A DNA stretch of 64,000 nt, from the NCBI RefSeq assembly GCF_000425405.1, contig NZ_AUDJ01000002.1, positions 1-64,000 of the forward strand. Direction: 5' to 3'. This document shows positions 39,762-42,899 of the stretch, piece by piece. Origin of the DNA: Ferrimonas kyonanensis DSM 18153. GTDB taxonomy: Bacteria; Pseudomonadota; Gammaproteobacteria; Enterobacterales; Shewanellaceae. The position numbers were made by a program, and so were the translations under genes. Below the pieces are notes generated by a model. That model had not been told where the DNA came from. It did not search any database and saw only the letters and a program-made list of their open reading frames with translations. Within the stretch, counting starts at the first letter, position 1, and each line of letters opens with the position of its first letter.

Positions 39762-41198
39762 CGTCGTGGCCGCGCACGCGGGTACCCAGTGTCTGTGCTA
39801 CACCCATACGTCGTGCCCGCGCATGCGGGTAGCCAGTGTCTGTAATTCGTATCTAGGTCAAAGCCGCTGGGCCCTGGCGTTCGCAAGGGCGACGGTGCTA
39901 TAGGGGAGGGGGAGGAGTAAACGAGCAGTGATTGCGCTATCGGCAGACCTCGATGCCGGTCGTTGCGCTCGCCAACCTAAAACACCCTTCGGTCGTGCCC
40001 GCGCACACGGGTAGCCAGCGTCTGTATCTGGTATCAAGGTTAAAGTCACTGGGCCCTCGCGTTCGCAAGGGCGACGGTGCTATAGGGGAGGGGGAGGAGT
40101 AAACGAGCAGTGATTGCGCTATCGGCAGACCTCGATGCCGGTCGTTGCGCTCGCCAACCTAAAACACCCTTCGGTCGTGCCCGCGCACACGGGTAGCCAG
40201 CGTCTGTATCTGGTATCAAGGTTAAAGTCACTGGGCCCTCGCGTTCGCAAGGGCGACGGTGCTATAGGGGAGGGGGAGTAGTAAACGAGCAGTGATTGTG
40301 GTGTCGGCAGACCGTGTTGCCGGTCGTTACCGTCATCAACCTCAAACACCCTTCCGTCGTGCCCGCGCATGCGGGTACCCAGTGTCTGTAATTTGTATCA
40401 AGGTTAAAGTCGCTGGGCCCTCGCCTTCGCAAGGGCGACGGTGCTATAGGGGAGGGGGAGTAGTAAACGAGCAGTGATTGCAGTGTCGGTACAGCTCGGA
40501 GTTGGTTGTTCTCCTCACCAACCTTAAACACCCTTCCCGTCGTGCCCGCGCACGCGGGTAGCCAGTGTCTGTAATTCGTATCAAGGTTAAAGTCACTGGG
40601 CCCTCGCGTTCGCAAGGGCGACACGTTTGGAATGCAGTGCTAGCGGGGGGGCTCAGGCCGCCACCAGGTTATGAGGTTTTCAGGCTGAAGGTTCGTGGGA
40701 CATTTCGATTGCGACTGTGGGTTAATCCATCCTTCCGTCGTGCCCGCGCACGCGGGTACCCAGCGTCTGTGCCTGGTATCAAGATCAAAGCCGCTGGGCC
40801 CTCGCGTTCGCAAGGGCGACACGTTTGGAATGCAGTGCTAGCGGGGGGCTCAGGTCGCCACCAGGTTATGAGGTTTTCAGGCTGAAGGTTCGTGGGACAT
40901 TTCGATTGCGACTGTGGGTTAATCCATCCTTCCGTCGTGCCCGCGCACGCGGGTACCCAGTGTCTGTAATTCGTATCAAGGTTAAAGTCACTGGGCCCTC
41001 GCGTTCGCAAGGGCGACGGAGTGATTAAGGAAGAGCGGTAGTAAGCGAGCAGTGATTGCGGTGTCGGTAGAGCTCGATGCCGGTCGTTGCGCTCGCCAAC
41101 CTAAAACGCTCTCCGTCGTGCCCGCGCACGCGGGTACCCAGCGTCTGTATCTGGTATCAAGGTCAAAGCCGCTGGGCCCTCGCATTCGCAAGGGCGAC
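39762..41198. repeat. Array of eight double-palindrome units (REP/BIME-like)
   Basis: The unit is 84-85 bp: left arm GTCGTGCCCGCGCACGCGGG followed by TACCCAG, a middle of about 30 bp (TATCAAGGTTAAAGTC at its end), and right arm CTGGGCCCTCGCGTTCGCAA followed by GGGCGAC. Each arm is itself a hairpin (CCCGCGCACGCGGG; CCCTCGCGTTCGCAAGGG) and the two arms are near-complementary. Copies at 39809-39893, 39992-40075, 40174-40257, 40356-40439, 40539-40622, 40737-40820, 40934-41017 and 41115-41198, plus one lone left arm at 39762. Spacing is 182-198 bp. Layout matches REP/BIME-type elements; no REP transposase (RAYT) is in the window. Confidence 0.85.
40623..40933. repeat. Type II spacers of the repeat array
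   Basis: The spacers between units 5-6 (40623-40736) and 6-7 (40821-40933) are nearly identical to each other (about 114 bp, containing ACGTTTGGAATGCAGTGCTA and ATGAGGTTTTCAGGCTGAAG) and unrelated to the other spacers, which are about 98 bp and related to each other (TGCTATAGGGGAGGGGGAG, GTAAACGAGCAGTGATTG). So the array grew from two kinds of unit-plus-spacer blocks. Confidence 0.75.
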
Positions 41199-41342
41199 GG
41201 AGTGAAGGGGAACTGCGGAGCCATAAACTACCGCCGTGCCGCCGAATCAGGGAGAGATGATCGCCTTCGGCGTTACTGCGCTCATGCTTCGCTCCGTTGC
41301 GAACTGAAGAGTTTGAACCAAGATCTCCACAACGCGCATAAA

Positions 41343-41380
41343 CAAAAAAGCCCCCGCACTTCGTGCAGGGGCTTTTTTGT
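41343..41380 (-). terminator. Intrinsic terminator of the tRNA-Ser operon
   Basis: Stem GCCCC(C)GCAC / GTGC(A)GGGGC with A-run on the left and T-run on the right, so active on both strands. It starts 6 bp past the 3' CCA of the second tRNA on the minus strand. Confidence 0.85.
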
Positions 41381-41385
41381 TTATA

Positions 41386-41473
41386 TGGCGGTTAGGGAGA
41401 GATTCGAACTCTCGATACGTTGCCGTATACACACTTTCCAGGCGTGCTCCTTCAGCCACTCGGACACCTAACC
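41386..41473 (-). tRNA. tRNA-Ser(GGA), copy 1
   Basis: An 88-nt class II tRNA with encoded CCA. On the minus strand: acceptor GGTTAGG/CCTAACC with discriminator G, D-arm CCGAGTGGCTGAAGG, anticodon arm CACGCCTGGAAAGTGTG with anticodon GGA, long variable arm TATACGGCAACGTA and T-arm with GTTCGAATC. Body identical to copy 2 except the fourth acceptor pair (T-A here, G-C there). Decodes UCC/UCU. Confidence 0.95.
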
Positions 41474-41518
41474 AATTTTCAATTGAGAGTTTTAAGAGCT
41501 CAATCAAACTCTATGCCA

Positions 41519-41585
41519 GGTGGCTGAGAATCCCGCCTATGGCGTGATTATGCTGCGCTGCGTGCAGCCACTCGGACACCTAACC
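41519..41585 (-). pseudogene. Decayed tRNA-Ser-like copy 1
   Basis: Minus strand begins GGTTAGGTGTCCGAGTGGCTG, the first 21 bases of the tRNA that follows it, then skips AAGGAG, keeps CACGC and diverges; the remainder (ending CTCAGCCACC) has no anticodon, variable or T-arm. It can still fold: GTGGCTG near the start pairs with CAGCCAC at the end, with CGCC-ATA-GGCG inside. Nearly identical to copy 2 (three base differences). Confidence 0.7.
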
Positions 41586-41590
41586 AAATA

Positions 41591-41678
41591 TGGCGGTGAG
41601 GGAGAGATTCGAACTCTCGATACGTTGCCGTATACACACTTTCCAGGCGTGCTCCTTCAGCCACTCGGACACCTCACC
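41591..41678 (-). tRNA. tRNA-Ser(GGA), copy 2
   Basis: An 88-nt serine tRNA with the same D, anticodon (GGA), variable and T arms as copy 1 and acceptor stem GGTGAGG/CCTCACC. Encoded CCA at 41591-41593. First intact tRNA after the promoter at 41841-41869; separated from copy 1 by a decayed copy. Confidence 0.95.
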
Positions 41679-41731
41679 AAATTTTGGGTTTTTGTTTTGA
41701 GAGCCAACCGTGCTCTGTTTCGGTGATTTTT

Positions 41732-41798
41732 GGTGGCTGAGAATCCCGCCTGTGGCGTGATTAAGCTGCGCTGCGTGCAGCCACTCGGACACCTCACC
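41732..41798 (-). pseudogene. Decayed tRNA-Ser-like copy 2
   Basis: Same 67-nt layout as the decayed copy 1 but begins GGTGAGG, matching the acceptor variant of the tRNA that follows it. The CGCC-ACA-GGCG inner hairpin and the GTGGCTG/CAGCCAC outer stem are kept, so the three substitutions between the copies lie in loops or acceptor positions. Confidence 0.7.
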
Positions 41799-41840
41799 AA
41801 ATTGTTTGTCTTGAACGACGTATCGCTGAAGACGGGGCGT

Positions 41841-41869
41841 ACTTTACGGGCTGAGTTGGTGAGGGTCAA
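41841..41869 (-). promoter_or_regulatory. Promoter of the tRNA-Ser operon
   Basis: On the minus strand TTGACC (41869-41864), 17 bp, TAAAGT (41846-41841), followed by a GC-rich discriminator (ACGCCCCG). This is the layout of growth-rate and stringently controlled stable-RNA promoters. Predicted start near 41834, 36 bp before the decayed copy 2. Confidence 0.75.
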
Positions 41870-41977: not shown

Positions 41978-42193
41978 TCAGACCCACCCCATGTGCCAGC
42001 GGTCGGAGTTTTGCAGCTCTTCGGTACGCAGTTCCACCGGCATGCGGTTATTGACCCCCTGCAGGCCAACCCGGGTGACGTGGCCGTGGCTGTCGGTAAA
42101 GGTGTAGGTGACCCAGAAGTGGGTGTCGTCATTGACGGCGCTGTAGGCGGTCCATTTACTCAGGTGAAGCTGGCTTTCAGGAAATACGTTCAT
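41978..42193 (-). CDS. TIGR02450 family Trp-rich small protein
   Basis: A 71-residue protein from ATG 42193 (GGGGA 9 bp upstream; an in-frame ATG at 42208 would add five residues). The TIGR02450 pattern is visible: LHLSKWTAY near the start, HFWVTYTF, and a closing ELQNSDRWHMGWV with three Trp in all. The family is common in marine gammaproteobacteria and cyanobacteria and its role is unknown. Soluble, no signal peptide. Sits alone behind the tRNA operon promoter, on the same strand. Confidence 0.65.
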   Translation of the reverse strand: MNVFPESQLHLSKWTAYSAVNDDTHFWVTYTFTDSHGHVTRVGLQGVNNRMPVELRTEELQNSDRWHMGWV

Positions 42194-42410
42194 CAGTCCG
42201 GTCCCCATAATGCTAAGAACAGGTGCGCGCCTCCTGCGTGGCCCCTGAATTCAGTGTAGTCGGTGATGGCACCGCTGCAACACTAGGGGGCGGAGGCACC
42301 TCAAGGGTGAAAAGAGTCGGAAATAATTCAGTCCATTAGCGGCCATGACTTGTCAATGTCACGGCGATTGTTCAGGATGGGATTTGATTCCGACAGCAAA
42401 GGAGCGAGCG

Positions 42411-42899
42411 ATGTTGGACCTGTTACCTGACTTGTGTGATCAGTTCAGTGAGGAATTGACCATACTGCCTCCCCGATTCCGCCAATTTGGCGGCAAGAGC
42501 CTATTCTGGGGCCCGGTTCACTGCATCCGATGCCCTGAAGACAACACCTTGGTGCGCCATTGCCTGTCTCAGCCTGGAGAGGGGCGGGTACTGGTGGTCG
42601 ATGGCGGCGGCCAGGAGCGGCGAGCCTTGCTGGGGGACAACCTGGCAAAACTGGCCTTGGATAACGGCTGGGCCGGTGTGGTGGTGTACGGCTACATTCG
42701 TGATGTGGCCACCATTGGAACCATGGATTTGGGGGTACAGGCCTTAGGAGCCATGCCGCTGAAAACCGATAAGCGCGGCCTGGGCGAACAGGGCGTGGTG
42801 ATCGAGATTGAAGGCCGGCGCATCGAACCGGGTCAATATCTGTACGCCGATGATAACGGCATCGTGGTTTGCAACCGAGAATTGCCGCTATCTGAGTAA
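42411..42899 (+). CDS. RraA-like protein
   Basis: A 162-residue protein with AAAGGAG 6 bp before ATG 42411. It has the RraA fold: LPDLCDQF opening, FGGKSLFWGPV, GEGRVLVVDGGGQERRALLGD, YGYIRDV and LYADDNGIVV. In E. coli RraA inhibits RNase E in a trimeric ring; relatives include 4-hydroxy-4-methyl-2-oxoglutarate aldolases. DGGG...RRALLGD and a GxxRD-like segment (YGYIRDV) would hold the aldolase site, so either role is possible. Length equals E. coli RraA (161). Single gene. Confidence 0.75.
   Translation: MLDLLPDLCDQFSEELTILPPRFRQFGGKSLFWGPVHCIRCPEDNTLVRHCLSQPGEGRVLVVDGGGQERRALLGDNLAKLALDNGWAGVVVYGYIRDVATIGTMDLGVQALGAMPLKTDKRGLGEQGVVIEIEGRRIEPGQYLYADDNGIVVCNRELPLSE

Follow-up and report, generated by a model that had tools for sequence, protein, structure and literature searches.

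A half-tRNA element before tRNA-Ser(GGA) in Ferrimonas and related families: a candidate structured RNA with predicted alternative pairing to the tRNA

The 5′ leaders of transfer RNA (tRNA) transcripts are commonly regarded as waste. The element described here lies in such a leader, in the tRNA-Ser operon at positions 41386 to 41869 of a window of 64,000 nucleotides (nt) from Ferrimonas kyonanensis DSM 18153 (contig NZ_AUDJ01000002.1, positions 1 to 64,000). It is a tRNA-like piece of about 68 nt, which we call P, that carries the first 21 letters of the tRNA following it, together with about five letters of shared leader upstream. The closest described system is the RtT RNA (RF00391) of E. 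coli tyrT; according to PMC4986893, RtT RNAs are freed from the transcripts of tRNAs and influence the stringent response. RtT RNAs resemble P in being tandem structured repeats within tRNA transcripts that join one tRNA end to a structured insert, but they carry the tRNA 3′ end and lie downstream, whereas P is an upstream element with the 5′ end. The gathering cut-off of RF00391 was not reached at the P positions in the loci scanned, while true RtT RNA in the same loci does score. Judged by its sequence, P is best seen as a 5′ counterpart of RtT that fails RtT's defining features.

P also invites comparison with the pseudogenes left by tandem duplication of tRNA genes. It too appears to derive from a tRNA copy and has a 5′ half identical to the gene, but its helices recur across families, one of them (P2) with paired changes and another (P3) conserved. 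P is an element of several families in one order of Gammaproteobacteria; no Rfam family matched it at the loci scanned, and a literature search that included the accessible parts of PMC4986893 and PMC2965389 found no description of a P-like element. Its recurrence in related families suggests a conserved part of an RNA rather than a dead gene. The reading that we favour, at a probability of roughly 0.4, takes P to be an RNA element, conserved and structured, that belongs to the 5′ portion of tRNA-Ser(GGA) transcripts and has a role in cis via alternative pairing. Neutral remains of duplication and a released small RNA are serious rivals.

Recurrence and structure of P

The preliminary description of this locus, made from the window alone, held that a lack of discrete RNA from the copies, together with rapid loss or random sequence in relatives, would mean a plain pseudogene. 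The architecture of P instead recurs across families and is not random decay. Within Ferrimonas, P precedes tRNA-Ser(GGA) in 11 of the 14 genomes, ten of them found by sequence pattern and one more (G010) by the RNA model R1, which was built from 36 copies and gives intact tRNA-Ser 24.6-26.9 bits and P 41-82 bits, save for a few divergent or cut copies. The copies of G010 are divergent (45.1 bits at L058, 31.7 bits at L057), and in them the helices outlast 5′ identity, which stands at 15/21 and 18/21. When 394 genomes of the order were searched with the same model, 28 had P; they belong to families f1, f6, f7, f16, f20 and f25, the f7 match being doubtful as it is without the P3 motif. We take family f25 for Aeromonadaceae, since named loci of Zobellella and Aeromonas have copies equal to its own, and 32 of its 75 genomes carry P at 40 bits or more; family f6 has P in 13 of 118 genomes, and beyond Ferrimonas, Aeromonadaceae and f6 there are two or three further families with P. 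Among the matches listed by a scan of public genomes, P stands ahead of tRNA-Ser(GGA) in members of Thalassotalea, Alteromonas, Aeromonas, Zobellella and Ferrimonas. Arrays are common: Ferrimonas and Aeromonas show the order P-P-P-tRNA, and in f6 a single tRNA is preceded by three to five P. Beyond the order, the only match among 360 genomes of the class was in the window's own genome, and this absence is weak evidence because the model is tuned to tRNA-Ser(GGA) and the filters were strict. Of 152 genomes of the family, 21 matched a looser pattern; the matches outside the genus are chance-like by their letters, and a reversed control of the pattern matched at similar rates. A second type of 5′-copy unit was seen in family f6 before tRNA-Ser or P (L299 and L301, also L261), made up of GGTGACGTGTCCGAGTGG, then GGCGTTACC, then a conserved stretch of about 120 nt.

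In the window's genome the association exceeds chance. Upstream of each of the three tRNA-Ser(GGA) genes stands a 21/21 copy of that gene's 5′ end; at the second locus of this genome (L038) the copy is a truncated tRNA fused to P, followed by tRNA-Ser. Among the 44 other tRNAs of the genome with at least 100 nt upstream, the best 5′ match reaches only 10-13 of 21 letters in 41; the three exceptions, which do have 5′ copies, are two tRNA-Gly(GCC) and one tRNA-Pro(UGG).

P consists of the tRNA 5′ half and three helices. P1 pairs GGCTG with CAGCC, P2 is a variable helix that often has a GAA loop, and P3 pairs CACGC with GCGTG, with one mismatch in the window copies. The 5′ strand of P3 is also the 5′ strand of the tRNA anticodon stem (CACGC), and the 3′ arm of P has two complements, the 5′ arm of P itself on the one hand and tRNA nt 15-21 and 27-31 on the other. 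P1 and P3 would be unable to drift because both must pair with P and with the tRNA, whereas P2 is free to vary. At two loci (L306 and L310) the host tRNA has GGCCG, and there the second strand of P1 is altered to fit the D-loop letter of the tRNA. Among 80 distinct 5′ copies found without any filter for P3, 78 have the P3 motif. Two other candidate features were rejected. A general closing helix GGTGA/TCACC occurs in some of the Ferrimonas copies and of the Thalassotalea/Alteromonas-like ones and has no counterpart in those of Aeromonas or Zobellella, and the GTG..TAA frame of the window copies, a possible short peptide, is broken in other species when compared by eye.

Alignment cells in which both sides of a pair had changed numbered 35 in the MAFFT alignment, against 13.7 in shuffled alignments and at most 17 in slid versions, 27 of them falling in P2 and eight in the two outer pairs of P3. 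An alignment fitted to the model gave 91 such cells against 30.2 shuffled and at most 25 slid; its 71 distinct rows show change on both sides in all six P2 pairs and none in P1 or in the five inner P3 pairs. The recurring architecture and the paired changes in one helix therefore make a conserved structured RNA the better reading than a plain pseudogene. In the sequences compared we regard as established the recurrence, the paired changes in P2, the fixed letters of P1 and P3 and the signs of concerted evolution described below. The covariation of P2 and the conservation of P1 and P3 are features beyond the constraint of the parent tRNA, although two robust covariation measures equal those of shuffled alignments.

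Predicted alternative pairing with tRNA-Ser

The scheme that we propose is as follows. P would have arisen from a tandem tRNA copy, keeping tRNA nt 1-21 and the 5′ strand CACGC of the anticodon stem, and the transcript, to judge from the order of the parts and the position of the promoter, would run from the promoter through one or more P to the tRNA. In one fold P is closed on itself and the tRNA folds alone. In the other, a predicted strand swap, the 5′ half of P replaces the tRNA 5′ half on the tRNA 3′ half, and the 3′ arm of P holds the displaced half. As an alternative partner P would, in what we infer to be its most likely role, slow or gate the maturation of tRNA-Ser before being removed, presumably by RNase E and RNase P, and recombination between P and tRNA would restore the 5′ identity. 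Attenuator-type hairpins are built of four segments that pair either as 1:2 and 3:4 or as 2:3, the two arrangements being mutually exclusive. In the predicted folds the corresponding segments are P sense, P antisense, the tRNA 5′ half and the tRNA 3′ half; unlike in an attenuator, there is neither a coding gene nor a terminator decision between P and the tRNA, and the outcome would be the folding of the tRNA.

Minimum free energy folding of 76 distinct P-tRNA pairs, a set limited to copies with a P3-like motif, predicts an acceptor swap (P nt 1-7 on the tRNA 3′ acceptor strand, with at least five of seven pairs) in 62; in 60, P is predicted to form ten or more pairs with tRNA nt 15-33. The mean energy gain, referred to the tRNA's own minimum energy, is −7.4 kcal/mol and falls to −4.0 kcal/mol when the P3 pairs are permuted so that the self-fold of P is kept. 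The expected number of pairs between P and tRNA is 31.75 in 72 pairs, compared with 19.38 when P is shuffled after nt 21. For the window unit 41589-41386 the swap is the predicted minimum fold, and P plus tRNA has a z of −2.98.

Two Ferrimonas genomes carry what resembles a covalent version of this arrangement (G008, L047 1531-1730; G011, L044 1667-1864 on the minus strand). Here the gene opens with a P-type 5′ half; after it come a middle part, then GGGCTGCCATGCATAC, then a 56/56 tRNA-Ser 3′ part that is perfect from the anticodon loop to CCA, and lastly a terminator-like hairpin, with no separate tRNA 5′ half. The ends are almost identical between the two species and the middle is divergent; in the centroid fold the CAGCCC of P can pair with GGGCTG ahead of the anticodon arm. 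Among 300 anticodon-loop sites in 486 loci, with repeated contexts counted once, these two alone are without a normal 5′ neighbour. Going by sequence, the interrupted tRNA-Ser has the form that the swapped fold would take if fixed as one gene. In the layout of these two loci there is a likeness to transfer-messenger RNA (tmRNA), which also has tRNA ends and a long insert in one RNA, but they keep an anticodon arm, and ARAGORN called neither a tRNA nor a tmRNA at the interrupted gene.

A stronger version of the scheme would make P a strand-exchange switch on the tRNA whose swapped form is itself a product, namely an RNase P-cut, tRNA-ended RNA with a long insert that is perhaps charged with serine. 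In the swapped fold the T-arm, the variable arm and the acceptor stem are predicted to be complete, using the 5′ strand of P, and RNase P could cut at the start of P; seryl-tRNA synthetase does not read the anticodon. We consider this stronger version rather unlikely, though the interrupted genes of the two genomes raise its chances somewhat. Among tRNA-like RNAs the interrupted tRNA-Ser would be out of the ordinary.

Several results weigh against a conserved cis-acting structure. The number of pairs with change on both sides was not above shuffles (203/500 and 230/500 for the two alignments), nor was the number of further pair types (237/500 and 114/500), and these two measures are those described as least misled by relatedness; the kinship of the sequences makes the p-values of the comparison too small. 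P alone is not unusually stable against shuffled sequences (z −1.22 and −1.26 for the window copies, and otherwise −2.37, 0.64, 0.59 and −0.06), so that of the stable stem which the preliminary description saw as conserved in both copies, the shared structure stands by comparison and the exceptional stability does not; the structure claim therefore rests on comparison. As for the swap, it is not predicted in 14 of the 76 pairs, P nt 1-21 pair with the tRNA no more than shuffled versions do (6.88 against 7.22) because any exact 5′ copy competes, and the segment joining P3 to P1 shows no antisense character toward the tRNA beyond that expected by chance (52 of 91 copies parsed, 16 distinct segments of at least 3 nt). 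A general swap rule for 5′ copies was rejected, the effect being opposite for tRNA-Gly (17 pairs) and absent for tRNA-Pro (nine pairs). Equilibrium folding ignores kinetics and proteins and is a guide only. Finally, P is missing in 3 of the 14 Ferrimonas genomes and stays below 40 bits in 43 of the 75 Aeromonadaceae genomes.

Concerted evolution and rival readings

The acceptor letters of P bear on how P and tRNA came to be alike. It had been claimed that each window copy shares the acceptor of the tRNA behind it, that copy and tRNA were duplicated as a block of 200 bp and that the acceptor variants co-evolved. The match itself is confirmed, with GGTGAGG in copy 2 and its tRNA and GGTTAGG in copy 1 and its tRNA. 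The duplication is retained and can be dated before a species split: the linkers behind the two copies are 48% identical to each other, whereas with their counterparts in another species they share 81% and 89% identity, and being closer across species than within the genome they place the block duplication before the split from that species. Co-evolution fares worse, as leader letters without a role in pairing are shared too (5.6 nt on average), P bodies are alike (91-95% identical within a genome) beside diverging linkers (47-55% there), and the acceptor of P equals that of its own tRNA in 54 of 76 pairs and differs in 22, the matching hosts being mainly GGTGAGG, GGTGACG, GGTCAGG and GGTTAGG. 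In G000 and G012 the T-type P body is nearer to its own G-type (0.95) than to its T-type counterparts in the other two species (0.86-0.91), which does not hold for G005. All seven P of these three species keep the position-4 base of their own tRNA. At L046 (1417-1504) a hybrid tRNA-Ser has the acceptor strands GGTGAGG and CCTAACC, with one mismatch. The shared leader letters, the hybrid acceptor and the like bodies beside unlike linkers point to recombination. From the sequences, the acceptor match would be mainly concerted evolution, to which selection for pairing may add, in keeping with the position-4 base that those seven P retain.

The same observations suit the rival that survives best, a possible but on balance unlikely one: that P is a neutral leftover of tandem tRNA duplication, an upstream copy that lost its 3′ half, was kept alike by unequal crossing-over or conversion, and stayed folded only since badly folding copies would harm the tRNA. 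Shared leader letters, the hybrid tRNA at L046, acceptor drift in 22 of 76 pairs and the patchy presence of P would all be expected of such remains. So would the 5′ copies before other tRNAs in Ferrimonas. By hand count in the loci fetched, Gly copies occur in 11 and Pro copies in 8 of the 14 genomes, before tRNA-Gly(GCC) and tRNA-Pro(UGG) (L374, L375, L404-L410, L412, L417, L419, L420, L423, L424, L427, L430, L436, L440 and L441); L416, an artefact in which the tRNA is cut at the contig end, was left out of the 5′-copy counts. At L410, nine Gly units are interleaved with six tRNA-Gly genes. Before a tRNA-Gly at L370 (215-295, minus strand) stands a nearly complete gene resembling tRNA-Gly (41.3 bits); it lacks the CCA, and its T-loop is enlarged. 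The process that makes copies is therefore general in Ferrimonas. In predicted folds, Gly copies keep clear of the tRNA better than their shuffled versions. When 24 Gly copies and 10 Pro copies were aligned, they showed conserved parts of their own and little covariation. Neutral decay would not, however, readily give the same helices across several families, paired changes in P2 next to the fixed letters of P3, a P3 motif in nearly every copy, or the helices of G010 that outlive the 5′ identity.

Somewhat less likely still, by analogy with what has been proposed for RtT RNA, is a trans-acting small RNA freed during tRNA maturation. RtT RNA does stand behind the same tRNA-Ser in several P loci: it scores above the cut-off behind the P-bearing tRNA-Ser of L320 (76.3 bits) and, by coordinates, at six P loci of f25 (G365:C37, G261:C38, G261:C21, G356:C2, G485:C86 and G392:C93), in an order where 63 of 388 genomes have RtT above the cut-off. 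P, in contrast, has no conserved unpaired segment besides its tRNA-derived letters. Weaker relatives of RtT are also present. Behind tRNA-Ser at L324 (1922-2460) stand three RtT-like units in tandem, each about 208 nt long and below the Rfam cut-off, two of the three with a tRNA 3′ end and terminator, and weak RtT-like units occur in Ferrimonas L054 and L056. In the window, a piece at 41241-41330 on the minus strand, after the terminator, may by eye be a decayed RtT-like unit, a diverged repeat of the tRNA 3′ end, and likewise by eye resembles downstream pieces in five other Ferrimonas genomes; Rfam gave no RtT match in the window, this piece included.

That P is a structured spacer which insulates the tRNA or aids its processing, the latter being one of two possibilities raised in the preliminary description, we consider improbable. 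The position of P in the leader, between promoter and tRNA, would suit such a role, and next to Gly copies the native acceptor is predicted to be more fully paired than next to shuffled ones (0.65 against 0.29). Real Ser copies, however, pair with the tRNA more than shuffled ones and lower the predicted pairing of the native acceptor (0.10 against 0.21 shuffled), so that a processing aid is not what folding predicts. A DNA element, whether an attachment site or a small mobile unit targeting the tRNA-Ser gene, might account for the patchy distribution, the arrays and the 21-nt direct repeats at tRNA genes, but it is scarcely credible given the constant orientation upstream of the tRNA-Ser 3′ half in the loci read, the lack of any plasmid match and a best score of 30.4 bits in 43 viral stretches chosen by pattern.

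The operon in the window and its meaning

The order originally read on the minus strand, of promoter, copy 2, tRNA-Ser, copy 1, tRNA-Ser and terminator, is borne out. A promoter-like TTGACC-17-TAAAGT followed by a GC-rich stretch (41841-41869) was the one motif found by a scan that expects 0.4 by chance. P copy 2 (41731-41798; 57.8 bits with model R1) starts with tRNA nt 1-21 and continues through P2 and P3 to the CAGCC strand of P1; a linker with a hairpin and an AT-rich leader (41679-41730) connects it to the first tRNA-Ser (41591-41678). P copy 1 (41518-41585; 56 bits), a second linker of the same make-up (41474-41517) and the second tRNA-Ser (41386-41473) follow, and a terminator-like inverted repeat (41338-41384), whose 22-nt arms are 95% complementary and which a simple terminator scan does not list, closes the operon. 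Both genes are tRNA-Ser(GGA) by ARAGORN and the Rfam tRNA model (52.5 and 51.9 bits), and these are the only two genes that either method calls at the locus, the P copies having no complete cloverleaf. Each copy had been credited with 26 bases matching the tRNA; 21 of these are tRNA bases, and the other five or so are leader. The 71-nt repeat that holds the P copies is 96% identical and the 97-nt tRNA repeat 97%, at spacings of 213 and 205. Just downstream of the operon, 39800-41223 has tandem and dispersed repeats with a period of about 182 nt, in two overlapping families of five and six copies; upstream lie a DUF2389 gene (41978-42193, 48.5 bits) and an RraA-like gene (42345-42896, Pfam PF03737, 151.7 bits).

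In P and tRNA-Ser, nature supplies a clear example of a gene that evolves jointly with a fragment of itself. With RtT mirroring it at the other end of the gene, a half-tRNA element that is conserved and arrayed before one tRNA in several bacterial families would make tRNA transcripts a direct testbed for regulation by folding.
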